DNA from: Nocardioides sp.
Lineage (GTDB): Bacteria > Actinomycetota > Actinomycetes > Propionibacteriales > Nocardioidaceae
Length of the DNA: 52,926 nt
NCBI RefSeq assembly: GCF_025964975.1
Contig: NZ_JAOPXV010000166.1
Span: 1-52,926, forward strand
Direction: 5' to 3'
Numbering within the stretch: position 1 is the first letter of the stretch; every line of letters starts with the position of its first letter. Below are positions 12,870 to 44,380 of the stretch, in pieces. A model generated the notes under the pieces. It was not told the origin of the DNA. It was given only the letters and a program-made list of their open reading frames with translations, and did no database searches. A program made the position numbers and the translations under genes.

Positions 12870-13880
12870 ATGGTCCGCTTCATCGTGCGCCGCCTGATGC
12901 AGATGGCGGTCGTGCTCGCCGTACTCTCGATCTTGTTGTTCCTCTGGCTCAAGGCACTCCCCGGCGGCCCCGTCTCGGCCATCCTCGGTGAGCGCGCAAC
13001 GCCCGCTCGTCGCGCCGCCCTGGAGACCGCGCTCGGGCTCGACCAACCCGTCTACGTGCAGTACTCCAGGTTCATCACACGTGCGCTCCAGGGCGACTTC
13101 GGTGCCTCGACCGGTGTGCTACCCGGCGAGGATGCCTTCCAGGTGTTCCTCATCCGGCTCCCGGCAACGGTCGAGCTGTCCTTCTTCGCCATCCTGGTGG
13201 CGATCGCGCTCGGCATTCCGCTGGGCTACTTCGCCGCCAAGCGCCACGGCTCCCCTCTCGACTCGGGTGCCGTGGTCCTCTCCCTGATCGGGGTGGCAGT
13301 GCCGGTGTTCTTCACAGCCTTCCTGCTGAAGTACTTCGTGGCGGTGGAGTGGAACCTCCTCCCGGTCTCGGGCCGGCAGGACCCAGGTCTGGAGGCGACC
13401 CGGGTCACCGGGTTCTTCGTCCTCGATGGGCTGTTGACCCGCGAGTGGGACGCGGCATGGGACGCGATCAAGCACCTCATCCTGCCGACCCTGGCGCTGG
13501 CGACGATCCCGTTCGCGGTGATCTTCCGCATCACGCGCGCGGCGGTGCTCGACACCCTCGACGCCGACTACGTCCGTACGGCGGAGGCGAAGGGACTCAC
13601 CGCCAGCGTCATCCGGCGCCGGCACGTCCTTCGCAACGCCATGCTCCCGGTCGTCACCACGATCGGCCTCCAGGTCGGGGGCCTGCTGGCCGGCGCGATC
13701 CTCACCGAGACCGTCTTCTCGTTCCCCGGCATCGGCGACGCCCTGGCCCAGAGCTACCGCGAGAAGGACTATGCGGTGCTCCAGGTTCTGGTCCTGGCCG
13801 CGGCGGCGATCTTCGTCATCGTCAACCTGCTGGTCGACATCGCCTACGCCGTCATCGACCCCCGGATCAGGACGAGGTGA
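12870..13880 (+). CDS. ABC importer permease, DppB/OppB type
   Basis: 336 residues. An inner-membrane channel subunit with one N-terminal helix (VVLAVLSILLFLWLKALPGG, with the family's PGGP) and the BPD_transp_1 core. The EAA loop is TAEAKGLTASVIRRRHVLRN, which docks on the ATPases; it is followed by LLAGAILTETVFSFPGIGDA, a DppB signature. About six membrane helices are visible. It pairs with the DppC-like permease that overlaps its stop codon. Confidence 0.92.
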   Translation: MVRFIVRRLMQMAVVLAVLSILLFLWLKALPGGPVSAILGERATPARRAALETALGLDQPVYVQYSRFITRALQGDFGASTGVLPGEDAFQVFLIRLPATVELSFFAILVAIALGIPLGYFAAKRHGSPLDSGAVVLSLIGVAVPVFFTAFLLKYFVAVEWNLLPVSGRQDPGLEATRVTGFFVLDGLLTREWDAAWDAIKHLILPTLALATIPFAVIFRITRAAVLDTLDADYVRTAEAKGLTASVIRRRHVLRNAMLPVVTTIGLQVGGLLAGAILTETVFSFPGIGDALAQSYREKDYAVLQVLVLAAAAIFVIVNLLVDIAYAVIDPRIRTR

Positions 13881-14833
13881 GCAGGATGGGTGCCAGCTCG
13901 TACGCCGACCAGCGCAAGAACCGCATCGACGACCTCGCCGCGACGTCGGTCGACGACTCAGCAGGCGTGTCCCTGATCGTCAGCGCGTGGCGTCGACTCC
14001 GCCGCAACCCCGTGTTCCTCCTGGGTCTGACCATCACCGTGCTCTTCGTGCTGCTGGCGGTGGTCTCACCCTGGCTGGCGCCGCACGACCCGACCAGCCC
14101 GTTGCTGCTGGACAAGGTCCGGCCGCAGTCCAACCCCGTGCCGGGCCCCGAGCCCGGCTTCCCTCTAGGCGCCGACGCGCGCGGTCGGGACCTGCTCTCA
14201 CGGCTACTGGTCGGGAGTCGGCAGACGCTGATCGTCGGCGTGCTGGCCACCGTCTTCGGACTCATCGGCGGCCTTGTGCTGGGGACACTGTCCGGCGCCC
14301 TGGGCGGCTGGATCGACTCCGTGGTGATGCGCATCGTCGACGTGATGCTCTCGATCCCGTCGCTGCTGCTGGCGTTCACGATCGCCGCGATGGCACCCCG
14401 GCCGAGCCAGACGACCCTGATCATCGCGATTGCAATCATCCAGGTGCCGATCTTCGCGCGGCTGCTTCGGGGGACGATGCTCGCGCAGCGCAACAGCGAC
14501 CACGTGCTGGCCGCCCGCGCGCTCGGCGTCAAGCCCGCTGCCATCGTCTTCCGGCACATGCTGCCCAACGCCATGGGACCCGTCATCGTGCAGGCGACCC
14601 TGGTCCTGGCCGTCGCGATCATCGACGCGGCTTCGTTGTCCTTCCTGGGCCTGGGCAACCCCGACGAACGCCAACCCGAGTGGGGACAGATGCTCGGAGC
14701 GTCCCAGAGGTTCATCTACGACCACCCGCACCTCGCCTTCTACCCCGCCATCTGCATCATCGTCGTCGCCCTCGGCTTCACGCTCATGGGCGAGGCGTTG
14801 CGTGAGGCCCTCGACCCGAAGTCCCGGAGATGA
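13877..14833 (+). CDS. ABC importer permease, DppC/OppC type
   Basis: 318 residues from GTG at 13877, which overlaps the preceding TGA as GTGA. An ATG three codons on (13886) is an equally possible start. The N-terminal region has the OppC_N segment (WRRLRRNPVFLLGLTITVLF) and HDPTSP. The core includes FPLGADARGRDLLSRLLVGS and the EAA loop HVLAARALGVKPAAIVFRHM. It is an inner-membrane subunit that forms the translocation pathway with the DppB-like protein. About six helices are seen. Confidence 0.9.
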   Translation: MSRMGASSYADQRKNRIDDLAATSVDDSAGVSLIVSAWRRLRRNPVFLLGLTITVLFVLLAVVSPWLAPHDPTSPLLLDKVRPQSNPVPGPEPGFPLGADARGRDLLSRLLVGSRQTLIVGVLATVFGLIGGLVLGTLSGALGGWIDSVVMRIVDVMLSIPSLLLAFTIAAMAPRPSQTTLIIAIAIIQVPIFARLLRGTMLAQRNSDHVLAARALGVKPAAIVFRHMLPNAMGPVIVQATLVLAVAIIDAASLSFLGLGNPDERQPEWGQMLGASQRFIYDHPHLAFYPAICIIVVALGFTLMGEALREALDPKSRR

Positions 14834-14837
14834 CCCG

Positions 14838-15866
14838 ATGAGCGCCACGTTGAGCCTTCGCGACCAACCGACGTCCCGGAGCGGCGCACTGCTGTCGGTC
14901 CGGGACCTGCGGGTGACCTTCACCCGGCACGGCGAGGTGCCGTTCCCTGCCGTCGACGGGCTGTCCTTCGACGTACACCCCGGGCAGACGGTCGGCCTCG
15001 TCGGCGAGTCCGGCTGCGGCAAGTCCGTCACGTCTCTCGCGGTCATGGGTCTGCTCCCGGCGCGCGGCAACCGCGTCGAGGGGGAGGCGCTCTACGAGGA
15101 CGTCGACCTGCTGAGCCTCACCGCCAACCAGATGCGCGACCGGCGGGGACGCGACATCGCGATGATCTTCCAGGACCCCCTGTCCTCGCTGAACCCCGTC
15201 GTGCCCATCGGCGTCCAGGTCACCGAGGTGATGGAGCGCCACCGGGGCATGAGACGCAAGGACGCGATGCCGAAGGCGCGGGAGCTCCTCGAGCGGGTGG
15301 GGATCCCCGACCCGGGGGCGCGGTTGAAGAACTATCCCCACCAGCTCAGTGGCGGCATGCGGCAGCGTGCGCTGATCGCGATGGCGCTCGCGTGCGAGCC
15401 GCGGCTCCTCATCGCGGACGAGCCGACCACCGCGCTCGACGTCACCATCCAGGCGCAGATCCTGGCCCTGCTCAAGGAGCTCGTCGAGGAGACCGGCACC
15501 GCGCTGATCATGATCACCCACGACCTCGGCGTCGTGGCCGGCCTGTGCGACGAGGTCAACGTGCTCTACGCGGGACGTATCGTGGAGCGGGGCGACCGGC
15601 ACCGGCTGTTCGCGCGGCCGCGCCACCCCTACACCCACGGCTTGCTGGCCTCCATCCCCCGATTGGACTCGCCGCGAGGTGAGCGGCTCAACCCGGTGCC
15701 GGGCTCGGTGACGGACAACCTCCCGTGGACCTCCGCCTGCGCCTTCGCGCCGCGGTGCCCGAATGCTCTCGACATCTGCCGGACTGTGACTCCCGCCTGG
15801 GAGATCGAGCCGAGTGGGCGCGGGCTGAGGTGCCACAACCCCGTGGATCAAGGAGACCGGAGATGA
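14838..15866 (+). CDS. ABC importer ATPase, DppD/OppD type
   Basis: 342 residues. A cytoplasmic ATPase with Walker [10 protein letters not shown]-loop [11 protein letters not shown], signature [15 protein letters not shown] and Walker [13 protein letters not shown] followed by the switch His in ITHDLGVV. The C-terminal extension ends with the Cys-containing oligopeptide-transporter motif ([12 protein letters not shown]) typical of OppD/DppD. It starts four bases after the permease stop. Its last codons overlap the next ATPase as ATGA. Confidence 0.93.
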
Positions 15867-17008
15867 GCGACGTCACCGACGCGCCCGACGACGTGCTGGT
15901 CGACGTACGCGGACTGAAGGTGCACTTCGCGATCAAGAGCGGGATCATCTTCGACCGGACCATCGGTCACGTCTATGCCGTCGACGGAGTCGACCTGCAG
16001 ATCCGGCGCGGGGAGACCTATGGCCTCGTGGGCGAGTCCGGTTGCGGGAAGTCGACCCTGGGGCGAGCGATCCTCAAGCTCGAGACCCCGACCGAGGGCA
16101 CCGTCTCCTTCGACGGTGTGGACGTCGCGAGCCTTGAGGGCGAGGAGCTCCGGCGCCAGCGCCAGCACATGCAGATGGTCTTCCAGGACCCGATGTCCAG
16201 CCTCGACCCCCGGCAGTCCGTCGAGTCCCTGCTGGTCGAGGGCATGCGCGCCCATGGGCTCGACCAGGACAAGGCCACCACCCAGGCACGGCTGCGCGAG
16301 CTGCTCGGCTCGGTCGGGCTGCCCTCGGCGGCCCTGTCGAAGTATCCGCACGAGTTCTCGGGTGGACAACGCCAGCGCATCGGCATCGCCCGGGCGCTGT
16401 CGGTGCAGCCGTCCCTGATCGTGGCGGACGAGCCGGTGAGCGCCCTCGACGTCTCGGTCCAGGCGCAGGTGCTCAACCTGCTCGAGGAGCTGCAGGACGA
16501 GCTCGGCCTCACCTACCTCGTCGTGGCGCACGACCTAGCGGTCGTCCGCCACATCAGCGACCGGATCGGGGTGATGTATCTCGGTGGCATCGTGGAGGAG
16601 TCGGAGGCAGGGGAGCTCTACGACGTCCCGCTCCACCCCTACACCCGGGCTCTGATGTCGGCCGTGCCCGTCCCCGACCCGGTGGTCGAGGACAGCCGGG
16701 AGCAGCTTCTGCTGACCGGCGACCTGCCGTCGCCGTCCCACCCGCCGAGCGGGTGCCGGTTCCACACGCGCTGTCCGTGGCGCCAGCCGACCCGCTGTGA
16801 CGACGAGCGCCCGGTCCTCCGAGCTCCGGAGGTCGCCGGGATCACCCCCGGTCACCGCGTCGCGTGCCACTGGGCGGAGGAGATCGCAGAAGGCGAGCTC
16901 CGGCCGCATGCCGTGGCTGCCGAGCTGGTCGAGCCGGGGAGCACCAGCACGGTGGCCGACGACGCCTCACCGTTCGGTCCCGCCTCCGCGATCGAGATCG
17001 GCGGCTGA
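15863..17008 (+). CDS. ABC importer ATPase, DppF/OppF type
   Basis: 381 residues. Walker A is [13 protein letters not shown]-loop MVFQDPMSSLDPRQS, signature FSGGQRQRIGIARAL and Walker B LIVADEPVSALD. The FHTRCPWRQPTRC motif near residue 300 is the OppF-type C-terminal cysteine region. The ATG at 15863 is preceded by AAGGAGACCGG and overlaps the previous stop as ATGA. A low-complexity tail of about 50 residues (Val/Glu/Ser/Ala) extends past the usual family end. It is the last gene of the importer operon and converges on a DUF7218-like gene 15 bp away. Confidence 0.93.
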   Translation: MSDVTDAPDDVLVDVRGLKVHFAIKSGIIFDRTIGHVYAVDGVDLQIRRGETYGLVGESGCGKSTLGRAILKLETPTEGTVSFDGVDVASLEGEELRRQRQHMQMVFQDPMSSLDPRQSVESLLVEGMRAHGLDQDKATTQARLRELLGSVGLPSAALSKYPHEFSGGQRQRIGIARALSVQPSLIVADEPVSALDVSVQAQVLNLLEELQDELGLTYLVVAHDLAVVRHISDRIGVMYLGGIVEESEAGELYDVPLHPYTRALMSAVPVPDPVVEDSREQLLLTGDLPSPSHPPSGCRFHTRCPWRQPTRCDDERPVLRAPEVAGITPGHRVACHWAEEIAEGELRPHAVAAELVEPGSTSTVADDASPFGPASAIEIGG

Positions 17009-32490: not shown

Positions 32491-33461
32491 GATGACTCCT
32501 TGGATGTGATGTTCGAGGTGAGTGCAGGTCGGAATCCGTGGTCGAGCTCGCGCACGGCATTGCGCACGTCGTCGTCGACGAGGTCGGCGTTGAGGGCGAG
32601 GGCTGCGGCGGAACCGGCACCGGCGGCAGTGATGACTTGCGCACGCGGATCCACAACGTTGCCAGCGGCCCAGACGCCGCGGACGCTGGTGCGGCCGGTG
32701 GCATCGGTGGTGACCCATCCGTCGTCATCGACGTCGCAACCGAGTTCGATGAGCAGAGCGGTGTTGGGGATGAAGCGGGGCGGTACGAACAACGCGTCGC
32801 GGGGTACGACGCGGCCATCGTCCAGGCGCACGCCGCGCAGCTGGTCGGCGCCGTCGATGACGAGGCCGTCGACCGTGCCTTCGACGACTCCGATGGCGCG
32901 GGCGACCAGCTGAGTACGCTCGACCGCGCTCAGCGTCCCGGGCGGGGTGAAGTAGACAAGGTCGTGGGTCCACTGCCGCACGATCTGCGCGTAGCGCACG
33001 GCGCCCGGAGTGCCGCCGATGACGCCGAGCTGCCGGTCCCGAACCTCGTAGCCGTGGCAGTACGGGCAGTGCAGCACGTCGCGCGCCCACCGATCGCGGA
33101 GTCCGGGAATGTCCGGTAGCTCGTCACGCAGTCCGGTCGTGACCAGGAGCCGGCGAGCGGAGACTCGTTGCCCGTCGTCCAGGAGCAGCCAGAACGCATC
33201 GCTGCCGTTGGGCACCAGGTCGTTGACGGTGCCCGTGATGACTTCGCCGCCGTACTCCTTGATCTCGATCCTGCCTGCGACGAGCAGCTCCCTCGGCGGC
33301 ATTCCGTCACGTGAGAGGTAGCCATGCATGTGTGCAGCTGGGCCGTTCCGCGGCTCGCCGGAGTCGATCACGAGAACCCTCCGCCTGGCACGCGCAAGAA
33401 CCAGTGCCGCTGAGAGTCCAGCGGCGCCCCCTCCGATGATCACTACCTCGTATCTGTTCAT
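32487..33461 (-). CDS. Thioredoxin-reductase-like FAD/NAD(P) oxidoreductase
   Basis: 324 residues. FAD-binding Rossmann motif GGGAAGLSAA at residues 10-19, the redox-active CPYC at 132-135 (LHCPYCHGYEV), an NAD(P)-binding site IGGTPGAVRYAQ and a C-terminal FAD motif VRGVWAAGNVVDP. This matches the thioredoxin-reductase-like group found beside XRE regulators rather than housekeeping TrxB; there is no thioredoxin gene nearby. The ATG at 33461 is at the canonical N-terminus; the frame extends upstream only as antisense of the regulator. Divergently transcribed from the cupin-XRE gene across 76 bp. Confidence 0.88.
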   Translation of the reverse strand: MNRYEVVIIGGGAAGLSAALVLARARRRVLVIDSGEPRNGPAAHMHGYLSRDGMPPRELLVAGRIEIKEYGGEVITGTVNDLVPNGSDAFWLLLDDGQRVSARRLLVTTGLRDELPDIPGLRDRWARDVLHCPYCHGYEVRDRQLGVIGGTPGAVRYAQIVRQWTHDLVYFTPPGTLSAVERTQLVARAIGVVEGTVDGLVIDGADQLRGVRLDDGRVVPRDALFVPPRFIPNTALLIELGCDVDDDGWVTTDATGRTSVRGVWAAGNVVDPRAQVITAAGAGSAAALALNADLVDDDVRNAVRELDHGFRPALTSNITSKESS

Positions 33462-33537
33462 GCCTCCAGAGTCCTGCGCGAGGAGCCGATCACCTACGAA
33501 CGTTGCTGTTTTGGGGAATTGGGAGTCAGATGAGCCC
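33462..33537. promoter_or_regulatory. Divergent promoter/operator region between flavoprotein and XRE-cupin regulator
   Basis: Seventy-six bases, locally AT-richer (CTACGAACGTTGCTGTTTTG), separate the two divergent starts. AACGTT (33499-33504) is a small palindrome. The regulator probably binds here, but no operator can be defined. Confidence 0.4.
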
Positions 33538-34128
33538 GTGAAGGACGCATCCGCGGCGATGGAACAAGTGCTCGCCGAGGTTGGACCAAGACTGCGCCGA
33601 GTTCGGTTGCAGCGAGGGATGACCCTCACCGGCGTCGGGGACACCACGGGTATCTCGAAGAGCACGCTGTCGAGACTGGAGAACGGACAGCGGCGTCCGA
33701 CGTTGGAACTTCTTCTTGCGTTGTCGCAGGCATACCGGGTTCCGCTGGACACTCTTGTCGCTGCCCCCGAGGTCGGGGATTCTCGCCTCCGTCTGAAGGC
33801 AGGTGTCGTCAAGGGTAGGACCGTGATCCCGTTGACCAGGCACCCCAGCGGCACCCAGGCGTGGAAGATCGTCATCCCGACGAGCAAGGTTGTCCCCGAG
33901 CCGCGGGCGCATGAAGGCTACGAGTGGATCTACGTCCTGTCCGGCCGCATGCGGGTGGTTCTGGGCGATCGGGACTGGGTGCTCGGCCCGGGTGAGGTGG
34001 CCACCTTCGACACTCAGGTGCCTCACTGGTTCGGTAGCACTGGCGACGAGCCCGCGGAGATCTTGAGCATCTTCGGAAGGCCGGGCGAGCGCATGAGCCT
34101 GCGAACCGGGCCACCGATCGGGGGTTGA
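33538..34128 (+). CDS. XRE-family transcriptional regulator with C-terminal cupin
   Basis: 196 residues from GTG 33538. The helix-turn-helix (RLRRVRLQRGMTLTGVGDTT then GISKSTLSRLENGQRRPTLE) is at about residues 18-60. A cupin barrel follows (AHEGYEWIYVLSGRMRVVLG, GPGEVATFDTQVPHWFG), which usually senses a small ligand. The start is uncertain: GGGAG lies about 13 bases before the GTG, and an ATG seven codons on is possible. It probably controls the divergent flavoprotein and itself. Confidence 0.85.
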   Translation: MKDASAAMEQVLAEVGPRLRRVRLQRGMTLTGVGDTTGISKSTLSRLENGQRRPTLELLLALSQAYRVPLDTLVAAPEVGDSRLRLKAGVVKGRTVIPLTRHPSGTQAWKIVIPTSKVVPEPRAHEGYEWIYVLSGRMRVVLGDRDWVLGPGEVATFDTQVPHWFGSTGDEPAEILSIFGRPGERMSLRTGPPIGG

Positions 34129-34207: not shown

Positions 34208-34579
34208 ATGACTGTCGTACGAGTGCTGCTGGTCGACGACCAAGCACCCTTCCTGCGAGCGATGAAGGCGGTCGTCGACGAAACCGAGGGATTCGAGGTC
34301 GTCGGGGAGGCATCGTCCGGGGAGGAGTCTGTCGTGGCCGCGGCTGAGCTGCTCCCGGATGTCGTGCTGATGGATGTGAACCTGCCCGGCATAGACGGGC
34401 TCGAGACCACGCGCCTGCTGCGGGACCGTCCCTCGCCGCCGGTGGTGCTGTTGCTCTCGACGTACGACGAGGACGCCGGTGCGCACTTCGTCGCCGAGTG
34501 CGGGGCAGCGGCCTACGTGACGAAGTCGGCGTTCGGTCCCGACCAGCTCCGAGACGTGTGGAGCGGTGCGTCCACCTAG
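34208..34579 (+). CDS. Receiver-only response regulator
   Basis: 123 residues and a complete receiver: acidic pair DDQ at 10-12, phospho-acceptor Asp56 in VVLMDVNLPG, switch residue in LLSTYDED and Lys in YVTKSAF. It stops right after the last receiver helix, with no HTH. It is therefore a CheY/SpoF-like single-domain protein or a truncated NarL-type regulator. Its TAG shares CTAG with the stop of the convergent degenerate kinase gene. The ATG at 34208 follows GAGGTGGGCTGACG. Confidence 0.8.
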   Translation: MTVVRVLLVDDQAPFLRAMKAVVDETEGFEVVGEASSGEESVVAAAELLPDVVLMDVNLPGIDGLETTRLLRDRPSPPVVLLLSTYDEDAGAHFVAECGAAAYVTKSAFGPDQLRDVWSGAST

Positions 34580-36639
34580 GCCACTGGGTCTCGAAGCAGC
34601 GCGAGCGGTCGGTTCGCGGGTCCGCGGACCTCCACCAGCGTGCGCCCCTCGTGGACGGTGCTGGAGACCGACCCTCCAGCTGCTTCGATCCGGTCGCGCA
34701 TGTGGCGCAGCGACAGCGGCTCAGACTCGGTGCCGCTGACGCTCAGGTGCAGCCGGCCGGCGTGCACAGCCAGCACGACAGCGATGGGGTGCTCGAAGGA
34801 ACGGGTCGCCTCGGTGACACAGAAGTAGGCAGCAGCCTCCACGCGTGGGTCGAAGCGCACGGCTGCCGCCGAGTCCTCGATCGTCAGCCGCCCGGCGAGG
34901 CCGGGCCGCGCGAGCAGGGACCCGAGCGCCATGGGGAGTCCGGAGCGCGTCAGCTGCGCAGGGAACACCCCGCGGGTGATCTCGCGCAGCGACTTCACGG
35001 CCAGGTTCGTCGATATCAGCAGCGCCTCGAGCTGCCCGGCGACCACGCCGCTCGGGCGTGAGTCGTGCGAGAGAGCACGGAGCTGGTCCGGCAGCGGCGC
35101 AAGGTGAGGGATCACCTGTCGGGCGATGGCCCGCTCGACGCGGCTTCGTTCGGCGTCCCCAGCGCTGATCAGCCGTGCTCGGGACTCCTCCAGCTCGCGG
35201 GTGTGGCAAGCGAGCTTCTCCACCTGTGCGGACAGCTCCGTGGCCAGCTGGGCGTTGCTCAGTGCGATCCCTGCCTGGGCTGCGAGGTCGGCGAGCAACT
35301 GCTTGTCCCGCCGGCGGAGCGGGCGTCCGGCGCCCATCTCCACGGTGATGGTGCCCAATCTCTCGCCGTGCTCGGCCACGGGCATCGAGAACTCCGTGGT
35401 GCCACGTTGGTCGACTCGTTCGGGCGGCCAGGCCGTCTCGCGGCCAGGACCGTCTTGCACCCGGACGGAGACGACGGCTCCTCTGGCATTCAGCGCCCGA
35501 GCGGCAGCTTCCGCGACCGCAGGCAGGAGGGCGGCGGGGTCGGGCCTGTCCCCGAGCTGGCGGCTGAAGTCTGCCAGGGCTTCGTATGGCGCAGCAGCGG
35601 CACCGAATGCGACCCGGTCAGCCAGTCGAACAACCCGGCGGCGCATGGGCTGGAATGCGATCGCCACGAGTGCCGTCGCAACGAGGGACGGCCAGAAGCC
35701 ACCGGCTTCCTGCCCGGCGGCGGAACCGATCACCACAACGAGGAACACGTAGCCGATGGCGGCCAGTCCGGTCGCTGTGGCAACCATCAGTGCGCGATTG
35801 ACGATGAGGTCGATCTGCAACAACCGGTGGCGCAGCACCGCGACGGCAACGCACAGCGGGACCGCCAGCTGCGCGAGCCGCAGGGGCAACCCTGCGAGCC
35901 AGGTGACTTCCTCGCCCTGGATGCGCGGGAGCACCAGGATGATCACGACGCTGACGGCGAGGAAGACTGCCGACGATGCAATCCACAACAACTGGCGCCG
36001 CTCGTCGTCGCGGGCCTTGAGCAGCCGCAGCACCAGGGACACCGCCGAGGCGAGGAGACCGGCGGCAATGAGCAGGTATCCGATCGTGAGCAGGACGGTG
36101 GACAGCGAGACTCCGTCGTACTGCTCGGAGTAGACGAAGTCCCCCGGGGACGTGGCAAAGTTCCCCAGGGTGCGCAGTCCAAGACCCACCAGGGTGACCC
36201 ACACCGCCCAGCGCCAGCGGGATGAAGGGAGGTGGCCCGTGGGAGAGATCAGGAAGATCATGACCAGTGCGGTGAAGGCCGGCCAACCGATGAAGGGTGA
36301 CGCCCAGGCGACCACGTGGGCCCAGTACGGCGACCCCGGTCCATCACCCTCGAGGACCCAGACCGTGTAGGCGTCAGCGGCCAGGGTCACCGAGAGAAGG
36401 CTCGCGACGCACAACAACCAGCCCAGCATGTGCCGCGGATGGCGCGAGACGATCAGAGCCCCCATCAGGGCGCATCCCAGACCGGCCGAGGGCGCCAGTG
36501 GCCAGCCGTGGTGGGCCCACGTCGCTTCGCTGAGCAGCGAACTGTGAGCGGCGGTGAACCAGGTGTCCAGCGCGGCGGCCAACGTCGCCACACCGACGAG
36601 TGACCAAGCGACGGTCGCGCGCACCTCAGACCGCCACAC
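34576..36639 (-). CDS. Sensor histidine kinase-like protein with degenerate catalytic core (pseudokinase)
   Basis: 687 residues. The N-terminus has about eight to nine membrane helices (residues 8-325); then come a GAF-like domain (about 345-470) and a HisKA_3-like segment. Its DAERSRVERAIARQVIPHL aligns with DTERSRLERDLHDGAQQHL of the neighbouring kinase, so the phospho-acceptor His is Ala506 and the next Asp is Arg507. The ATPase lobe reads FCVTEATRSFEHP where active enzymes have EAxxNxxKH, and the DNGxG box is replaced by SGTESE. ATP hydrolysis and autophosphorylation look lost while the fold is kept. The start is GTG at 36639, or GTG at 36624 just past the upstream kinase stop. Confidence 0.85.
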   Translation of the reverse strand: MWRSEVRATVAWSLVGVATLAAALDTWFTAAHSSLLSEATWAHHGWPLAPSAGLGCALMGALIVSRHPRHMLGWLLCVASLLSVTLAADAYTVWVLEGDGPGSPYWAHVVAWASPFIGWPAFTALVMIFLISPTGHLPSSRWRWAVWVTLVGLGLRTLGNFATSPGDFVYSEQYDGVSLSTVLLTIGYLLIAAGLLASAVSLVLRLLKARDDERRQLLWIASSAVFLAVSVVIILVLPRIQGEEVTWLAGLPLRLAQLAVPLCVAVAVLRHRLLQIDLIVNRALMVATATGLAAIGYVFLVVVIGSAAGQEAGGFWPSLVATALVAIAFQPMRRRVVRLADRVAFGAAAAPYEALADFSRQLGDRPDPAALLPAVAEAAARALNARGAVVSVRVQDGPGRETAWPPERVDQRGTTEFSMPVAEHGERLGTITVEMGAGRPLRRRDKQLLADLAAQAGIALSNAQLATELSAQVEKLACHTRELEESRARLISAGDAERSRVERAIARQVIPHLAPLPDQLRALSHDSRPSGVVAGQLEALLISTNLAVKSLREITRGVFPAQLTRSGLPMALGSLLARPGLAGRLTIEDSAAAVRFDPRVEAAAYFCVTEATRSFEHPIAVVLAVHAGRLHLSVSGTESEPLSLRHMRDRIEAAGGSVSSTVHEGRTLVEVRGPANRPLALLRDPVA

Positions 36640-37993
36640 TGATGGGCCGCGAACCCGGGGCGACGGTGTCGCTCGCGTCGGACCGGGGCACCACGGTTGT
36701 CACGGTCGTACCGCCGCCGTACGACGAGGAGACCTCGACCGCTCCGCCGATCGCGTCCATCCGGTCTCGCATGTTCGCCAATCCAGCCCCGGTTGCGACG
36801 GTCGCGTCGCGTGGGTTGAAACCGATGCCGTTGTCGGTGACCGTGAGCCGCCAACGGTTCTGGTTCTCGTCCAGCCTGACCGACACACTCGTGGCGTTCG
36901 AGTGCTTGGTGGCGTTCTGGACCGCCTCCATGCAACTGAAGTAGAGAGCGGCCTCAACCGCTGCTGGGAGCCGCCCTAGCTCGTGGCCCTCGATCCTCAC
37001 AGACATGGCGCTGCCGACGATTCCCGCGCGCAGCGCCGACCCGAGTCCCTCGTCGGCGAGCTGCCTCGGGTAGATGCCGCGCGACAGGGTCGACAGCGTC
37101 TCGATGGCCATCAGTGCTGCGTCCGCCTGCTCGGTGAGGATGACGGCCGCGCGACGTGGTGAGCGCTCGACGATGGTGTGCGCCAGTCGGAGGTTGACCG
37201 TCAGGGCGACCAAGTGCTGCTGGGCCCCGTCATGCAGGTCTCGCTCGAGGCGGCTCCTCTCGGTGTCCTGGGTCTCGATGAGCCGCTCGCGCGAGGCCGA
37301 GATCTCCGCCGAACGGACCAAGAGTTCCTCGCGGCGGTCATCGAGCTCGGCGCGTAGTGCGACTCGTTTGAGCACCAGGCCGGCTTGGGCTGCCAGTCCG
37401 GCGAAGAGCCGCTCCTCGATCCGAGTGAGCGCGAGGCCCGGACGCTCCTGAAGTCGAAGCACGCCCAGAAGCTGGCGGCCCTGCCGAACCGGGAGCGTTC
37501 TCGAACCGGTCGGAGTCACCACGGCGTTCTCGTGACCAAAGGACGGAGGAGTGCGATCGACGTCGACATCCGGTGGCCAGCTGGCAGCCAGGGTCGCCCG
37601 GCCGGAGACGTTCAGCCACACCTGGGTCCACTCGGCCCCCGTGCCTTGGGCCAGCAGCATCGCCATCCGCTCCGGCAGCCCGTGGCTCGAGTCGGCGCCC
37701 GTGACTTCATCCGCGAAGTGGCTCAGCACGTCGTAAGGTCTCACGCCGCCCGGACTCCACCGGGCGGTGAGGCGCTCGAGCTCGGTCTGCACCCGCTGGA
37801 ACGCCAACGCCACGACGGTGGTCGCCAACACGGACAACAGCACGCTGGGGGACCCGGTGTGGCCGATGAGTGTCCCGCCTCCGACGACGACGACGACGTA
37901 GACCGACCCCACGAAGGCGGCGAGCCCGAGGAAGACGGCGGACGTGCTCAAACCTCCTGGGGGCAGCTGGCGGAGCGAGCGCCGTGGCGTCAT
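36626..37993 (-). CDS. NarL/DesK-type sensor histidine kinase
   Basis: 455 residues. Two membrane helices at about 18-65 (TSAVFLGLAAFVGSVYVVVV; LLSVLATTVVALAFQ), a GAF-like domain (about 100-215), a coiled linker, then HisKA_3 with His254 in ERDLHDGAQQHLV. The ATPase has the N-box SCMEAVQNATKHSNA, the D-box VTDNGIGFNP and GLANMRDRMDAIGG. It should phosphorylate the LuxR-type response regulator encoded 94 bp upstream in the same direction. Its end overlaps the degenerate kinase by 14 bp if the 36639 start is used. Compared with its neighbour it has a much reduced sensor. Confidence 0.9.
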   Translation of the reverse strand: MTPRRSLRQLPPGGLSTSAVFLGLAAFVGSVYVVVVVGGGTLIGHTGSPSVLLSVLATTVVALAFQRVQTELERLTARWSPGGVRPYDVLSHFADEVTGADSSHGLPERMAMLLAQGTGAEWTQVWLNVSGRATLAASWPPDVDVDRTPPSFGHENAVVTPTGSRTLPVRQGRQLLGVLRLQERPGLALTRIEERLFAGLAAQAGLVLKRVALRAELDDRREELLVRSAEISASRERLIETQDTERSRLERDLHDGAQQHLVALTVNLRLAHTIVERSPRRAAVILTEQADAALMAIETLSTLSRGIYPRQLADEGLGSALRAGIVGSAMSVRIEGHELGRLPAAVEAALYFSCMEAVQNATKHSNATSVSVRLDENQNRWRLTVTDNGIGFNPRDATVATGAGLANMRDRMDAIGGAVEVSSSYGGGTTVTTVVPRSDASDTVAPGSRPISVAV

Positions 37994-38087
37994 GGCTCAG
38001 TGTGCGCCTCCACGAGCGATGTGGGGGAGGGGCTCTGCCGCACCCGGAAGGTGGGGCTGGCCGTACCCGGCGGCATCGCCACTCGAC

Positions 38088-38756
38088 TCAGCGACGCGGG
38101 CCGCTGGCCTCGAGGTAGGTCAGCACGGCCATGACCCGCCTGCTCACCTCGTGCTCGTCGGCCAGCCCGAGCTTGTGGAAGACCGATCCGATGTGTTTTT
38201 CCACAGCGCGGTCACTGAGAAAGAGGGTCTTGGCGATGGTGGAGTTGTTGCGACCCGTTGCCATCTCGTGCAGGACAGCGCGCTCGCGGTCGGTCAGTCC
38301 GAGCAGGGGCGCTTCTGCTCCTCGACGGGCGAGCAACGCCTCGACGACGGCGGGGTCGAGAACCGACCCGCCGCGGGCCACTTCATGTAGGGCACGGGCT
38401 AGTTCGTCAAGGTCGCTGACCCGCTCCTTGAGCAGGTAGCCCACCCCAGCGGCTCCGCCGGCCAGGAGCGCGAAGGCGTAGTCCTCCTCGACGTACTGCG
38501 ACAGCACGACCACCCCGACACCGGGGTGCTCGAGGCGGATGCGGCGGGCCGCCTCGATGCCCTCGTTGGTATGGGTGGGTGGCATACGGATGTCAGTGAG
38601 GACCACGTCCGGTCGGTTCTCTGCGACCGACGCCATGAGCGAGTCCAGGTCGGCTGCCGTGCCGACGACCTCGATGCCTTCGCCCTCGGCGAGGAGCGCC
38701 GAGACCCCCTCACGAGCAAGGAAGTTGTCGTCCGCGAAGACGACCCTGAGGGGCAT
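38088..38756 (-). CDS. LuxR/NarL-family response regulator
   Basis: 222 residues. Receiver with DD at 9-10, Asp55 in VVLTDIRMPP and Lys in GYLLKERV. The C-terminal helix-turn-helix is LTDRERAVLHEMATGRNN then AKTLFLSDRAVEKHIGSVF. It is probably phosphorylated by the histidine kinase downstream. It is divergent from the MMPL-ABC operon across 178 bp, which makes that operon the obvious target. Confidence 0.92.
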   Translation of the reverse strand: MPLRVVFADDNFLAREGVSALLAEGEGIEVVGTAADLDSLMASVAENRPDVVLTDIRMPPTHTNEGIEAARRIRLEHPGVGVVVLSQYVEEDYAFALLAGGAAGVGYLLKERVSDLDELARALHEVARGGSVLDPAVVEALLARRGAEAPLLGLTDRERAVLHEMATGRNNSTIAKTLFLSDRAVEKHIGSVFHKLGLADEHEVSRRVMAVLTYLEASGPRR

Positions 38757-38780
38757 GCCTTGGACTGTAGCGATCCCCCG

Positions 38781-38815
38781 GACCGGGTGGGGCCAGCACT
38801 CATGACCGGTGGGGC
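38781..38815 (+). repeat. Direct repeats in the divergent promoter region of the response regulator and MMPL genes
   Basis: GACCGGGTGGGGC (38781-38793) and GACCGGTGGGGC (38804-38815) differ by one base and start 23 bp apart, about two helical turns. Their place between a LuxR-type regulator and a transporter operon fits tandem regulator sites; this is inferred. Confidence 0.4.
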
Positions 38816-38934
38816 TCGGTCCCGCTGTTGTGCGCCGTGCCCCATCCTCGCGAGCGGCGCCGATTCGTAGGTTCGACGTGCACTCTCAGACGTGCCCACC
38901 CTGGGCTGTCTGGCCCGTCGATGAGGAGTCCGAC

Positions 38935-41142
38935 ATGTTGGTACAGCTAGCTGACTGGTGCTTTCGACAGCGCCGTCTGGTCATCGTCGCGTGGGTCGCC
39001 GCGCTGGCGGGGGCCTTCGTCCTTGCTGGATCGATCGGCGGGGGGGCAAGGCAGGACTACTTCCAACCCGGATCCGAGTCACAGGCCGCCTCGGAGACTC
39101 TCCAGGCGAAGTTCCCGCGGCGGGCCGGCGACACCGTTGAGGTGGTGCTGCGATCCGAAAGCGGCTTCAGCTCCGCTGCCGTCCGCGAGAAGTCCGAGGA
39201 GATCTTCGAGGGCGTCGCCACCGACTCCCACGTCGTGGGTGTGGCAAGCCCGTTCAGCGACGGTGGCGCGCGCCAGATCTCGGCCGACGGCAAGACTGCC
39301 TACGCCGTCGTCGCCCTCGACCAGACCGTGGACGACTACACCGCAGCTGGGGCCAAGGCTCTGATCGACCCGATTCTCGCGGCTGGCGACGACACCTTGC
39401 GGGTCGAGGCAGGGGGCCCGGTCGCGGCGCTGTCCCAGACAGCACCTGTGGGCGGCGGTGAGGTCGTCGGCTTCGTCGCCGCGGCCCTGATCCTGCTGTT
39501 CACCTTCGGATCGGCGGTCGCGATGGGCCTGCCACTCCTCACGGCTGTCTTCGGCCTCGGCATGTCCGTCGCGCTGGGAGGCCTCTTGCGCCGAGTGCTG
39601 GACGTCCCCGACTGGGCGACCATGACGGCGGCGATGGTCGGCATCGGTGTCGGCATCGACTACGCACTGCTCATCGTCACCCGCTACCGCAGCGGCCTGG
39701 CGGAGGGACGGGACCCGCGTGGCGCGACCACGACGGCGATCGCAACCGCCGGCCGGGCAGTCGTCTTCGCCGGCATCACCGTCGTCATCGCAATGATGGG
39801 GATCCTCCTGGTCGGTCAACCCGCGCTGACGGGCTTCGCGTTCACTTCGTCGCTCTTCGTGCTGGTCACCATGGGCGCCTCGCTGACGCTGCTCCCAGCA
39901 CTGCTGGGGTTCGCCGGACGGAACATCGAGCGTTTGCACGTGCCGTTCGTGGGCAAGAGGCAGCGTGCGTACGACACGACGCGGTGGTACCGGTGGAGCC
40001 GGTTCATCCAGCGTCGGCCAGGGATCGCCGCGGTCGGAGGCCTCGCCGTCCTGCTCGCGTTGGCCGCTCCCCTGCTGGGCATCCGCCTCGGCACCCCGGA
40101 CGCACAGAACGAGCCTCCTGCGTACACGTCTCGCCAGGCCTATGAGCTGTTGGCGGACGGCTTCGGCCCAGGGTTCTCTGCGCCGTTGGTGCTGGCCGTC
40201 CACGGCGCCTCCGGCGCAGACCTGCTCACCTCAAGCGATGATGTGGGCAGGGAACTCGCCCTCGTGGAGGGCGTCGCCCAGGTCTCCGCTGCGGTCATCA
40301 ACGACGCCGGCGACACAGCGGTCCTGACCGTGGTGCCCAGCACGTCGCCACAGGACGCCGCCACTGGGGAGCTGGTCGATCTCCTGCGTGACACCGTCAT
40401 CCCGGATGCGACTGCGGGCACGGGTCTTGAGATCGCCGTCGGAGGGATGGTTGCCTCCAACCTGGACACCGATCGAGGGGTCGTCGCACGTCTGCCACTG
40501 TTCTTCGGCGGCATCCTGCTGGTGTCGTTCCTGCTCCTCATGATGGTGTTTCGCTCCGTCGCAGTGCCACTCAAAGCCGTCGTCATGAACCTGCTCGCGA
40601 GCGCGGCTGCGTTCGGTGTCCTGACGCTCGCAACAAACGGTGGACCGCTCGGCGACCTGGTCGGCATTCCGGAAGCCACACCCGTCCCGATCCTGCTGCC
40701 CGTAGGGATCTTCGCGATCCTGTTCGGTCTCTCGATGGACTACGAGGTGTTCCTCCTGTCGCGGATCAAGGAGGAGTACGACAGGACCGGCGACAACGCT
40801 CGGGCGGTCGCGGACGGTCTGGCCAAGTCCGCCCGGGTCATCACAGCCGGCGCTGCAGTGATGATCACCGTGTTTCTCTCCTTCATCCTGGGCCAGCTGG
40901 TCTTCGCCAAGATGTTCGGCATCGGCCTGGCCGCCGCCGTGTTCCTCGACGCGACCCTGGTTCGCCTGGTGCTCGTCCCAGCCACGATGGAGCTGTTGGG
41001 CGATCGCAACTGGTGGCTGCCGGGCTGGTTGGACCGCCTGCTGCCGCAAATTCACGCCGAGGGCCGCGAACCGGGTGACGACGACGGCACCGTCCCGCAG
41101 CCGTTCGTCCCCGCGCACCCCGTGCGCGCTGGCCTCCGATGA
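38935..41142 (+). CDS. MMPL-family RND transporter
   Basis: 735 residues. Two symmetric halves, each with a helix, an external loop domain and five to six helices. Signature segments are GIGVGIDYALLIVTRYRSG in the first half and FGLSMDYEVFLLSRIKEEY in the second; the central Asp-Tyr pairs carry protons. MMPL pumps export lipids or drugs across the actinobacterial membrane using the proton gradient. GAGGAG precedes the ATG. It is first in a chain of genes that overlap by ATGA, so it is probably co-translated with the ABC exporter. Confidence 0.92.
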   Translation: MLVQLADWCFRQRRLVIVAWVAALAGAFVLAGSIGGGARQDYFQPGSESQAASETLQAKFPRRAGDTVEVVLRSESGFSSAAVREKSEEIFEGVATDSHVVGVASPFSDGGARQISADGKTAYAVVALDQTVDDYTAAGAKALIDPILAAGDDTLRVEAGGPVAALSQTAPVGGGEVVGFVAAALILLFTFGSAVAMGLPLLTAVFGLGMSVALGGLLRRVLDVPDWATMTAAMVGIGVGIDYALLIVTRYRSGLAEGRDPRGATTTAIATAGRAVVFAGITVVIAMMGILLVGQPALTGFAFTSSLFVLVTMGASLTLLPALLGFAGRNIERLHVPFVGKRQRAYDTTRWYRWSRFIQRRPGIAAVGGLAVLLALAAPLLGIRLGTPDAQNEPPAYTSRQAYELLADGFGPGFSAPLVLAVHGASGADLLTSSDDVGRELALVEGVAQVSAAVINDAGDTAVLTVVPSTSPQDAATGELVDLLRDTVIPDATAGTGLEIAVGGMVASNLDTDRGVVARLPLFFGGILLVSFLLLMMVFRSVAVPLKAVVMNLLASAAAFGVLTLATNGGPLGDLVGIPEATPVPILLPVGIFAILFGLSMDYEVFLLSRIKEEYDRTGDNARAVADGLAKSARVITAGAAVMITVFLSFILGQLVFAKMFGIGLAAAVFLDATLVRLVLVPATMELLGDRNWWLPGWLDRLLPQIHAEGREPGDDDGTVPQPFVPAHPVRAGLR

Positions 41143-42035
41143 TCACCGTCGAAGGCGTGACGAGGAAGTACGGAAGCTTCACTGCCGTGGACGATGTCAC
41201 CTTCACCGCGCACGTTGGTCGGGTGACCGGATTCCTCGGGCCCAACGGGGCCGGCAAGTCGACCACGATGCGGATCATGGTCGGCCTCACGCGAGCCACG
41301 GCGGGCACCATCACGATCTCCGGGCGGCACTACGTCGACCTGCCCAACCCAGGGCTCGACGTCGGCGTACTGCTGGACGCCTCTGCCCAGCACGCGGGCC
41401 GGACCGGTCGCGAGATCCTCACCATTGCCCAGCAGTACATGGGGCTCCCGCGCAGTCGCGTGGACGAGATGCTGGACGTCGTCAGCCTCACACCCTCGGA
41501 GGCGTCCCGTCGGGTGGGCAACTACTCGCTGGGCATGCGTCAGCGACTGGGGATCGCCACCGCCCTGATCGGTGATCCGTCGGTGCTGATCCTCGACGAG
41601 CCGGCGAACGGCCTGGACCCGGCGGGCATCCGCTGGATGCGCGACCTGCTGCGGAGCTACGCCGACCGTGGCGGGACCGTCCTGTTGTCCTCGCACCTGC
41701 TCCATGAGATCGAGGTCATCGCCGACGACATCGTGATGATCGGCAACGGCAAGATCGTCTCGCAGGGCACCAAGACCGAGCTGCTGCACGCTGCCGGCAC
41801 AGTCGTACGAGCGGCCGACCTCCCCCGTCTCGACCGTGCGCTCGGCCAGCTTGCGATCGCGACCACCAGGTCCCAGGCCGGGGCCCTGCTCACCGATGTG
41901 GACCCGGTCCTGGTCGGCAAGGTGGCCCTCGAGGCCGGGGTCGCCCTCAGCGAGCTGCGCACCGCCGATGCCGGGCTCGAGGACATGTTCCTCGCGCTCA
42001 CCGCCACCTCCCCACGAGAAGGAACAACGACATGA
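41139..42035 (+). CDS. ABC exporter ATP-binding protein
   Basis: 298 residues. Walker A GPNGAGKST at about residue 34, Q-loop region VGVLLDASAQHAGRTGRE, signature YSLGMRQRLGIA, Walker B VLILDEPANGLDP and H-loop LLSSHLLHEIE. The C-terminal 80 residues form the regulatory tail common in DrrA/BcrA-type exporters. The ATG overlaps the MMPL stop (ATGA) and the gene's own stop overlaps the permease start (ATGA). Confidence 0.93.
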   Translation: MITVEGVTRKYGSFTAVDDVTFTAHVGRVTGFLGPNGAGKSTTMRIMVGLTRATAGTITISGRHYVDLPNPGLDVGVLLDASAQHAGRTGREILTIAQQYMGLPRSRVDEMLDVVSLTPSEASRRVGNYSLGMRQRLGIATALIGDPSVLILDEPANGLDPAGIRWMRDLLRSYADRGGTVLLSSHLLHEIEVIADDIVMIGNGKIVSQGTKTELLHAAGTVVRAADLPRLDRALGQLAIATTRSQAGALLTDVDPVLVGKVALEAGVALSELRTADAGLEDMFLALTATSPREGTTT

Positions 42036-42835
42036 GCGCCGTCACGGCATCGAGTCCCCAGCGTCTCTACCCGGTACGCCGCCGCGTGCCGCTGACACGA
42101 GTGACGAAGGTCGAGCTGCGCAAGATGTTCAACACGCGCTCGGGCTTCTGGCTGATGGCCAGCATCGTCATCTCCGCCGTTCTGGCCACGGGCGGTGTGA
42201 TCCTCTGGGCGCCGGACGACCAGCTCACCTACTCGACGTTCGCGACGGCGATCCGCTTCCCCGTGGTCATCATCCTGCCGCTGATCGCGATCCTCGCGGT
42301 CACCAGCGAATGGAGCCAACGCGCCGGGCTCACCACGTTCACCCTGATCCCTCACCGCAGCCGGATCATCACCGCCAAGGCGATCTCATCGGTGCTCATA
42401 GCGTTTGCGGCGACGGTGTTGGCGTTCGCCGTCGGTGCGCTCGGCAACCTCCTGAGTGCCGGCGTCACAGGGACCACGCCGGTGTGGAACGTCACCCTGA
42501 CCCAGTGCCTCTACTACCTGCTCGGCATGCTCCTCAGTCTGCTGACCGGATTCATGCTCGGGGTGCTCCTGCGCTCCTCCACCGGAGCGATCGTTGCCTA
42601 TTTCGTCCTGACCTTCGTGCTGCCCATCGTCTTCGGACTCCTCGGCGACAACCAGCTGTGGTTCCACGACCTGCAGCCCTGGATCGACATCCAGTTCGCT
42701 CAGGGCGGCCTGTTCGTCTTCGAGCGAGCCCTGACCGCCGAGCAGTGGGCCCACATCGCCGTCACAGGTGTCACCTGGCTGCTGCTTCCCATGGCGATCG
42801 GGCTCGGATTCGCGACGCGTGCCGAGGTCAAGTAG
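42032..42835 (+). CDS. ABC-2 type exporter permease
   Basis: 267 residues with six predicted helices: FWLMASIVISAVLATGGVIL, AIRFPVVIILPLIAILAVTS, VLIAFAATVLAFAVGALGNL, YYLLGMLLSLLTGFMLGVLL, AIVAYFVLTFVLPIVFGLLG and HIAVTGVTWLLLPMAIGLGF. It forms the membrane part of the exporter with the upstream ATPase. The segment LTTFTLIPHRSRIITAKAI between helices 2 and 3 is usual for this family. The cargo is unknown; proximity to MMPL and a two-component system suggests drug or envelope-stress defence. Confidence 0.88.
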   Translation: MSAVTASSPQRLYPVRRRVPLTRVTKVELRKMFNTRSGFWLMASIVISAVLATGGVILWAPDDQLTYSTFATAIRFPVVIILPLIAILAVTSEWSQRAGLTTFTLIPHRSRIITAKAISSVLIAFAATVLAFAVGALGNLLSAGVTGTTPVWNVTLTQCLYYLLGMLLSLLTGFMLGVLLRSSTGAIVAYFVLTFVLPIVFGLLGDNQLWFHDLQPWIDIQFAQGGLFVFERALTAEQWAHIAVTGVTWLLLPMAIGLGFATRAEVK

Positions 42836-42894: not shown

Positions 42895-43374
42895 ATGAGA
42901 ACCATCAGTGTCGTCACCGACATCGCTGCCCCGGCGGAGGCAGTCTGGGCACACATCGCTGCCACGTCCGACTACCCAGACTGGAACCCGTTCATCACAG
43001 CGCTTCGGGGGGACCTCGTCGTCGGCGGTCGCCTGGAAATTCGCATCGCTCCGCCCGGTGGTCGCGCCATGACGTTCCGACCGGTCGTCACGGCCGTGGT
43101 CGAAGGAGCCCGGCTCGAGTGGCTAGGCCGACTGGGGCTGCCTGGCGTGGTCGACGGGCGGCACTCGTTCCAGCTCGAGCCCAAGGGGGACGGCGGCACC
43201 CGCCTCACGCAAGCCGAGGACTTCAGCGGGGTCTTGGTTCCCCTCATGCCGTCGGTGCTGAAGCGGACACGTGTGGGCTTCGAGCAGCTGAACGAGGCGC
43301 TGCGCGTTCGCGCGGAGCAATACACCTCCCCCAGACGCGATCGTTCATGGGAATCAGATGGTCATGGTCTCTGA
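42895..43374 (+). CDS. SRPBCC-family protein
   Basis: 159 residues, a START/Bet v1-type helix-grip fold that binds hydrophobic ligands: TDIAAPAEAVWAHIAATSDY, PDWNPFITALRGDL, then VDGRHSFQLEP and GGTRLTQAEDFSGVLVP. Members range from polyketide cyclases to lipid carriers; no catalytic residues can be assigned. AAGGAG lies just before the ATG. It follows the permease by 59 bp and overlaps the next gene by 17 bp, so it is probably part of the same transcript. Confidence 0.85.
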   Translation: MRTISVVTDIAAPAEAVWAHIAATSDYPDWNPFITALRGDLVVGGRLEIRIAPPGGRAMTFRPVVTAVVEGARLEWLGRLGLPGVVDGRHSFQLEPKGDGGTRLTQAEDFSGVLVPLMPSVLKRTRVGFEQLNEALRVRAEQYTSPRRDRSWESDGHGL

Positions 43375-44380
43375 ACGCCTCCTCCCGGCGCGCGCCTCGA
43401 TGCAAGCAGTCGTGCAGGACAGGTATGGCGATGCCAGCACATTGCGTCACGAACGTGTCCCGCGCCCGCGGGCCGGCACGGGCGAGGTGCTCGTTCGCGT
43501 GAGCGCAGCGGGTCTGGACCGCGGCACCTGGCACCTGATGACGGGCAAGCCGTACCTGATGCGGGTGGTCGGCATGGGCCTGCGCGGACCCAAGGACAGG
43601 GTGCCGGGGCGTGACCTTGCTGGCACGGTCGAGGCGGTCGGGCCAGCCGTGACCAGGTTCGCCGTGGGCGACGAGGTGTACGGCATCGGTCGGGGCTCGT
43701 TCGCCGAGTACGCCGTGGCCCGCGAGGACAAGCTCGCTCACAAGCCGGTGGGGCTCTCCTTCCAGGACGCCGCGGTCGTGCCGATCTCTGCCGGCACGGC
43801 CCTGCAGGCCCTCATCGACCACGGTCGCCTCGAACCCGGCCAGACGGTGCTCGTCATCGGGGCTTCCGGCGGGGTCGGGAGCTATGCCGTCCAGCTCGCC
43901 AACGCCCTCAGCGCGGAGGTCACGGGGGTGGCGAGCGCCTCGAAGCTCGACCTCGTGCGCTCCCTCGGCGCCCACCACGTCCTCGACTACTCGCGCGACG
44001 ACTGGGCCGACGGTAGCCGCCACTACGACCTTGTCCTGGACATCGCCGGCAATCCGAAGCTGTCCCGGCTGCGGCGGGCACTGGTGCCGACGGGAACAGC
44101 GGTGCTCGTCGGAGGGGAGAACGGGGGCAATCTCACCGGCGGGATGAATCGGTCGCTCGGAGCCTTGCTGCTGTCGCCGTTCGTGAGTCAGCGCTTCGCG
44201 TGGTTCGTCTCGCAGGAGACGGCCAGCGACCTCGAACGCCTCGCCGAGTTCATCGAGGCGGGGACCGTGACGCCGAGGGTCGAGCGAGTCTTCACCCTGG
44301 ATCACGTCCCGGAAGCCGTGCGCCACCTGGACGGCGGCAACGTCCGGGGGAAGGTGGCGGTCGCGGTCCGCGCTACCTGA
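43358..44380 (+). CDS. Quinone oxidoreductase/zinc-type alcohol dehydrogenase-like (MDR) protein
   Basis: 340 residues. An N-terminal GroES-like domain (AGTGEVLVRVSAAGLDRGTW, PGRDLAGTVEAVGPAVTRF) and an NAD(P)-binding Rossmann domain with VLVIGASGGVGSYAVQLA at about residue 166. No zinc-binding cysteines are present, as in quinone oxidoreductases. It probably reduces a quinone or reactive carbonyl with NADPH. The ATG at 43358 overlaps the SRPBCC gene; a later Met (43400) matches the family N-terminus and is an alternative start. Its 3' end overlaps the convergent MFS gene by 8 bp. Confidence 0.88.
   Translation: MVMVSERLLPARASMQAVVQDRYGDASTLRHERVPRPRAGTGEVLVRVSAAGLDRGTWHLMTGKPYLMRVVGMGLRGPKDRVPGRDLAGTVEAVGPAVTRFAVGDEVYGIGRGSFAEYAVAREDKLAHKPVGLSFQDAAVVPISAGTALQALIDHGRLEPGQTVLVIGASGGVGSYAVQLANALSAEVTGVASASKLDLVRSLGAHHVLDYSRDDWADGSRHYDLVLDIAGNPKLSRLRRALVPTGTAVLVGGENGGNLTGGMNRSLGALLLSPFVSQRFAWFVSQETASDLERLAEFIEAGTVTPRVERVFTLDHVPEAVRHLDGGNVRGKVAVAVRAT

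Follow-up and report, generated by a model that had tools for sequence, protein, structure and literature searches.

A conserved locus of an active histidine kinase, a membrane pseudokinase and two receivers, often next to exporter genes, in Nocardioides and related actinobacteria

Why does an actinobacterial genome keep, directly beside an intact histidine kinase, a longer membrane-bound relative of that kinase from which the catalytic residues have gone, and could the two together govern the exporter genes next to them? The question is raised by positions 34208-42835 of contig NZ_JAOPXV010000166.1 (52,926 nucleotides, the whole of which is called the window), one of 238 contigs in the 3.66-Mb genome assembly GCF_025964975.1 of a Nocardioides sp. 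A sequence-only reading of this DNA had proposed that the active histidine kinase (HK) and the pseudokinase (PSK) form a mixed dimer and that a response regulator (RR) then turns on an MMPL and an ATP-binding cassette (ABC) exporter. The kinase/pseudokinase idea has gained strong comparative support at the level of sequence, and we regard as fairly probable a receptor kinase of two subunits that works with two receivers: PSK gates HK, HK serves both RR and a lone receiver (REC), and RR turns on the exporter. In this answer we infer the mixed dimer, the direction in which control runs, binding by RR, the role of REC and the ligand. The cassette itself is a real, conserved arrangement, and a literature search of open-licence papers, made on titles and abstract beginnings, found no published description of it. 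The features of the locus are as follows.

34208 to 34579, forward strand: REC, lone single-domain receiver, convergent with PSK; Response_reg is the sole match (78 bits)
34576 to 36639, reverse strand: PSK, membrane pseudokinase of 687 amino acids
36626 to 37993, reverse strand: HK, active HisKA_3 kinase of 455 amino acids
38088 to 38756, reverse strand: RR, response regulator of LuxR/NarL type (Response_reg and GerE)
38757 to 38934, no strand: intergenic DNA between the divergent RR and MMPL genes, with putative RR sites
38935 to 41142, forward strand: MMPL family exporter (PF03176, 255.6 bits, cut-off 20.5)
41139 to 42035, forward strand: ATPase of an ABC exporter, DrrA/lantibiotic-protection-like (PF00005, 87 bits)
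42032 to 42835, forward strand: ABC-2-like permease (ABC2_membrane_4, 23 bits, under the curated cut-off)

All genes named in the sequence-only reading (REC, PSK, HK, RR and the divergent exporter operon) are present and in frame. The HK and PSK genes overlap by 14 bases, and the MMPL, ATPase and permease genes are joined, as had been described, by ATGA overlaps at 41139-41142 and 42032-42035; the top NCBIfam matches of the ATPase score under their cut-offs.

Conservation was assessed in 37 cassettes, comprising the window, 31 loci (L114-L144) accepted from the 35 found in a scan with the PSK alignment (L145-L148 were dropped as weak hits), and L085, L093, L095, L103 and L106. Duplicates of counted contigs (L029, L086-L092, L094, L096-L102, L104 and L105) were left out, as were L107, a second contig from the genome of L106, and two loci from other classes (L193 and L254); the distant L142 (33% identity) was kept in. 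The hosts of L114-L144 are Nocardioides, Kribbella, Aeromicrobium, Marmoricola and metagenome-assembled genomes labelled Modestobacter, Frankiales and others. Orthologues of PSK are sharply bounded, with E-values below 1e-100 in 19 of the 391 genomes of an order sample and a next best value of 1.4e-46; a class sample gave an orthologue in 3 of 394 genomes, both counts including the source genome. Separation of the two sensor genes in relatives would have told against the earlier proposal, and HK adjoins PSK in 35 of 35 scorable cassettes (L118 and L138 end at a contig edge). REC lies beside PSK, convergent with it, in 35/36 cassettes (missing in L085, while L106 ends at a contig edge); it is as constant as HK and had been underrated. 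An RR orthologue was found in 32/37 cassettes; among those without one, L118, L129 and L138 are cut by contig ends, L121 is a 9.4-kb contig, and L142 has none within 18 kb. The position of RR is upstream of HK in loci of the window type and elsewhere beyond REC, and it is farther off in L133, L137 and L140. Because the arrangement is conserved across cassettes, the gene set is beyond chance, and with four conserved signalling genes it is not a canonical two-component system of one kinase and one regulator. The expectation that the full set would occur together held for PSK, HK and RR and failed for MMPL plus ABC, which is present in a minority only. In the genome of L106 a single HK is apparently followed by two consecutive pseudokinases (13342-15420 and 15438-16067, the second running off the contig end), and L107 (2-1114) starts within a PSK and has its end in REC.

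HK and PSK are homologues, with 30% identity over 383 columns from the last transmembrane (TM) helix to the catalytic and ATP-binding (CA) domain (E 4e-28). In the window, HK matches HisKA_3 and HATPase_c over their curated cut-offs, and 30/30 sequences of the HK set match both domains; HK is a HisKA_3 kinase of the DesK/NarX type, with DesK and VraS as best solved relatives. In 35/35 HKs the residues His, Asp, Gln, Asn and Lys are retained, and so are the Asp and the glycines in the two G boxes; the N-box His is retained in 34/35. PSK falls outside this type because it lacks the phospho-acceptor His and the boxes of the ATP site; the window protein gave weak GAF matches only, with neither HisKA_3 nor HATPase_c at E<=0.1, and either domain was matched in 0/32 sequences of the PSK set, 7/32 giving a weak HisKA_7TM match. 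The phospho-acceptor His is retained in none of 37 PSKs and the second residue of the catalytic motif, Asp, in two. In the N box Asn is kept in 1/37, Lys in 0/37 and His in 0/37; in the G1 box Asp is kept in 1/37, the first glycine in 1/37 and the second in 0/37; the G2 glycines are kept in 12/37 and 1/37. The Glu preceding the N box is retained in 34/37. Among the 12 closest pairs, each of the four PSK domains has a ratio of nonsynonymous to synonymous substitution rates (dN/dS) in the range 0.12-0.42, and open frames are maintained across genera. PSK is thus under purifying selection with its catalytic boxes lost, and judged by its residues it is expected to be incapable of ATP binding and of being phosphorylated. 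The proposed split between active kinase and pseudokinase recurs as complementary roles in every scored pair (35/35 HKs intact, 37/37 PSKs degenerate), and because the HKs are intact whereas the PSKs are degenerate yet selected, sensing and catalysis look divided between two co-translated proteins.

AlphaFold2 models were built for HK from 30 sequences (mean predicted local distance difference test score, pLDDT, 83.7) and for PSK from 32 (mean pLDDT 84.1). The HK model has two TM helices joined by a very short loop, followed by GAF, dimerization and histidine phosphotransfer (DHp) and CA domains. The PSK model has about eight sensor TM helices and an HK-like two-TM hairpin, followed by GAF and DHp domains; its last domain is CA-like, but by model and sequence a short turn without the glycines of the ATP lid takes the place of that lid. 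A fold search found resemblance to the DHp-CA unit of DesK type. HK is without exactly the membrane sensor that PSK carries. The reduced HK sensor of the sequence-only reading was borne out as a two-TM hairpin, and a larger HK sensor hidden upstream was rejected, the HK frame measuring 456 amino acids from stop to stop. A search of solved structures with the single PSK sequence returned none and with a profile six GAF stretches only; the fold search gave DHp and CA matches, and none that explained the membrane sensor among the matches listed. Within the PSK DHp domain, the stretch S486-V509 ahead of the lost His is retained (R489, R498, E502 and V509 in 32/32), helix 1 is broken in the model directly past the position of the lost His, and prolines occur there at P511 (20/32) and P517 (25/32), whereas HK residues 236-275 are proline-free in 30/30. 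Because the upper stretch is retained and the helix break and prolines lie below it, the pairing half of the PSK DHp appears to be kept and the receiver-docking half not.

The favoured two-subunit receptor would work as follows. HK and PSK would be co-produced; in 30/30 loci a start codon of the PSK frame lies -14 to +1 bases from the HK stop when the nearest start codon is taken. Their most likely contact surfaces are the GAF domain, the coiled coil and the upper DHp helices common to both, PSK contributing the large membrane sensor and HK catalysis plus the last two TM helices only. In the mixed dimer the PSK sensor would set the kinase/phosphatase balance of HK. HK would phosphorylate RR, which would switch on the adjacent exporter genes through repeated intergenic sites; it probably phosphorylates REC too, which may compete with RR as a sink or act as a feedback element. 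Both receivers have intact residues for this: DD, D56, S84/T85 and K106 are conserved in REC (20-row alignment), and D10, D55, S86 and K110 are invariant in RR (18-row alignment).

The same partners could be wired in the opposite sense, with PSK as a brake that traps HK in dead mixed dimers until a signal frees HK for active homodimers, as in RetS/GacS; we consider this unlikely. A mixed dimer would hold a single CA domain and a single His, both on HK, and would presumably function only if HK phosphorylates in cis, which is a point in favour of the brake, and inhibition through heterodimerisation of the RetS type is known from Pseudomonas (PMC12189002; this and the papers below are cited from the excerpts available of them). 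RetS-GacS resembles the proposed pair in that a kinase is controlled through a heterodimer with another kinase, but the two are hybrid kinases and RetS is still active, with enzymatic effects of its own on GacS (PMC12189002), whereas PSK has lost every catalytic box. The tight coupling of the HK and PSK genes fits a fixed complex at least equally well.

An improbable alternative gives the lone receiver the leading part: PSK would read phosphorylated REC and relay its state to HK, in the way that DivL passes the state of DivK~P on to CckA. The cast is the same, since a lone receiver, a pseudokinase, an active kinase and a regulator are all present, and REC adjoins PSK in nearly every cassette. 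DivL, which is without kinase and phosphatase activity, binds DivK~P through its receiver-docking surface (PMC4211667); conserved prolines break up the corresponding half of helix 1 in PSK, and REC occurs with intact kinases where there is no pseudokinase. By analogy, the DivK-DivL-CckA-CtrA circuit of Caulobacter is nonetheless the nearest known system in logic, with its inactive pseudokinase, lone receiver, active kinase and regulator (PMC4211667). The cassette differs from it in being one compact locus of HisKA_3 type, with a reduced, sensor-less kinase, an apparently disrupted docking half in PSK, and no ChpT-like phosphotransfer gene among its named genes. DivL and CckA are of HisKA type and lie apart in the genome.

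HK and PSK could also be two ordinary sensors, with PSK a scaffold or acting elsewhere and HK alone a short intramembrane sensor beside an exporter. Bacitracin-type detoxification modules have such a two-TM intramembrane-sensing kinase next to an FtsX-type ABC exporter, and HK, with two TM helices and a very short loop, is often divergent from an FtsX-type ABC (19/37). This reading is quite improbable: the HK/PSK pairing is strict and the losses are complementary, and the hairpin, since it also ends the larger membrane part of PSK, is no sensor peculiar to HK. That PSK is merely a decaying pseudogene, as the loss of its catalytic boxes in 37/37 might suggest, is hardly credible and was rejected on dN/dS (below 0.45 in every domain, close pairs), frames open across genera and a recount of the catalytic residues.

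The output of the cassette is more varied than the window suggests. An MMPL protein of at least 69% identity is present in 7/37 cassettes (window included) and one of about 40% in two of Aeromicrobium. The window, L115, L117 and L141 have a DrrA-like ATPase directly after the MMPL gene; the ABC permease was detected in the window and L115 (81%), and partially in L117. In 19/37 cassettes, the window not among them, an ABC ATPase and an FtsX/MacB-type permease are divergent from HK; L129 was counted with the ATPase alone (contig end), and the FtsX/MacB domain call was made on L132. A DrrA-like ATPase also lies within loci L142 and L144. MMPL plus ABC as the output is therefore not general (MMPL in 9/37, a following DrrA-like ATPase in four, MacB/FtsX-type ABC in 19/37) and was rejected as a defining part of the cassette. 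In L119 (5876-6643) a DUF4386 membrane protein stands at the exporter position, divergent from RR, and in Nocardioides astragali (L115:11034-14763) two tandem REC genes precede a dehydrogenase of zinc type and another DrrA-like ABC pair.

In the RR/MMPL intergenic region of the window, TGGGGC blocks start at 38788 and, 22 bp further on, at 38810. The motif GCCCCATC, at 38839-38846 in the window, is invariant in 7/7 loci of the window type; repeated GTGCTGGCCCC-like blocks and GCCCCATC are common to all seven RR/MMPL regions. A position weight matrix (PWM) trained on these seven (type A) regions alone found sites, at width 14 and threshold 7, in 12/14 HK/ABC regions versus 18/72 other gaps of the same loci, and at threshold 8 it gave 32 hits versus 3.7 +/- 3.1 in dinucleotide shuffles (both strands, overlaps counted). 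These counts are suggestive of a DNA element shared by the promoters of both exporter types, in which case one regulator family may serve different exporters.

Relatives of PSK and HK extend well beyond the cassette. Matches to the PSK profile at E<=1e-40 were found in 95/396 genomes of a phylum sample, including tandem arrays of full-length kinases; in other classes such arrays comprise three to eight homologous membrane kinases (L179:1-15263, L181, L183, L190 and L197), that of L179 having eight kinase cores, the first truncated by the contig start. Three array members (L179:4828-6969, L180:3709-6114 and L184:7772-10216) have the phospho-acceptor His replaced by Arg and the next Asp by Glu with the N and G boxes intact, and are predicted to be ATP-competent without an acceptor His. 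REC caps tandem kinase arrays in several genomes of other classes. Short intact HKs paired with a long degenerate partner were found in other classes in L193, L142 and L254; the partner in L193 and L254 retains the His and is without the Asn, so that here too catalysis has been lost next to a short kinase that is intact, which supports split roles. A Cu/Zn superoxide dismutase gene (L193:4193-4846) lies divergent beside the HK of L193.

A tree of 79 rows was computed with the catalytic columns removed and supported, by a quick method without bootstrap, with the Shimodaira-Hasegawa-like approximate likelihood ratio test (SH-aLRT). It placed 20 PSKs together with four histidine-deviant array members (SH-aLRT 92) and, on the other side (98), the HKs, active kinases and two deviant members (L160 and L178). 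PSK and HK as mutual closest relatives were therefore rejected, PSK grouping with array members that lack the histidine and HK with the active kinases, and because the tree separates them the split looks older than the cassette. With moderate support, it suggests a division of labour inside an old array, of which a single catalytic gene and a single sensor gene were later left. One array copy would have lost its sensor and another all catalysis, and the resulting heterodimer would serve a single regulator and a single lone receiver. The full form of this idea, a split receptor kinase derived from a receiver-capped tandem array and acting as an obligate heterodimer on different exporters (MMPL, MacB/FtsX and perhaps DrrA-like) through the same element, is plausible but tentative. 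A literature search on tandem kinases in Thermoleophilia found no paper.

Several results weigh against the receptor reading or its proposed origin. The distances of PSK and HK are correlated (0.92, 29 loci), but co-inheritance alone predicts such a correlation; the count of closely spaced HK stops and PSK starts is biased to small gaps because the nearest start codon was chosen. A REC-profile search gave 38 places in 36/376 genomes, and outside the window REC was convergent with and immediately beside a kinase of the family in 24/37 places and not beside one in 13/37. REC often caps loci with only intact kinases in view; its presence is for that reason uninformative on the pseudokinase, and REC belongs to the whole kinase family. 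No exporter of the sought types was found in 7/37 cassettes, of which L118, L121, L126 and L138 are short contigs and three have ample sequence (L085, L093 and L119, 16 to 17.5 kb). The PWM was weaker at width 12 (14/14 HK/ABC regions versus 38/72 gaps), the reverse matrix, trained on HK/ABC and applied to RR/MMPL regions, gave no excess at the stricter threshold, and because the loci are related and G+C-rich the evidence for a shared element stays at the level of suggestion. Two of the six histidine-deviant members (L160 and L178) group with active kinases, and the tree was flagged for composition and has one long branch.

Other described systems share single aspects with the favoured two-subunit receptor. 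A laboratory-evolved ChrS pseudokinase acts through HrrS on the HrtBA exporter in Corynebacterium glutamicum (PMC9491836), likewise an actinobacterial pseudokinase with a partner kinase and an ABC exporter as output, and native ChrS and HrrS heterodimerise in two-hybrid assays. That variant, however, is a laboratory frameshift in one of two full systems, and its truncated form was non-interacting in the two-hybrid, whereas the PSK losses are ancient, fixed and inside one locus. AbrC1/C2/C3 of the actinobacterium Streptomyces coelicolor also has two kinases and one regulator, but its kinases are 57% identical, and the excerpt of PMC3098853 mentions neither a pseudokinase nor a lone receiver. 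Single features are held in common with single-domain receivers (review PMC12471899) and with a Caulobacter hybrid kinase without His (PMC11481889). Searches on single-domain receivers in actinobacterial clusters found nothing relevant, and those on Rv0600c/TcrA gave passing mentions only in the excerpts returned.

Few systems are known in which a histidine kinase has a pseudokinase partner, DivL being the best studied among those found. A compact locus in culturable Nocardioides and Kribbella would make the control of a live catalytic subunit by a dead sensor directly testable, and the cassette could also serve to test cis phosphorylation in such dimers and the function of the second, lone receiver. 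The array members with a lost His and an intact ATP site offer intermediate stages. If the receptor reading is true, exporter control in soil actinobacteria would be tied to a family of sensors for which no ligand is known.

Two neighbouring genes flank the locus in the window. An open frame at 33328-34128 (forward strand), directly upstream of REC, resembles a helix-turn-helix and cupin regulator as judged by eye. A zinc-binding dehydrogenase gene lies at 43358-44380, 3' of the exporter genes, with relatives near the cassette in L115 (43%) and L119 (64%).

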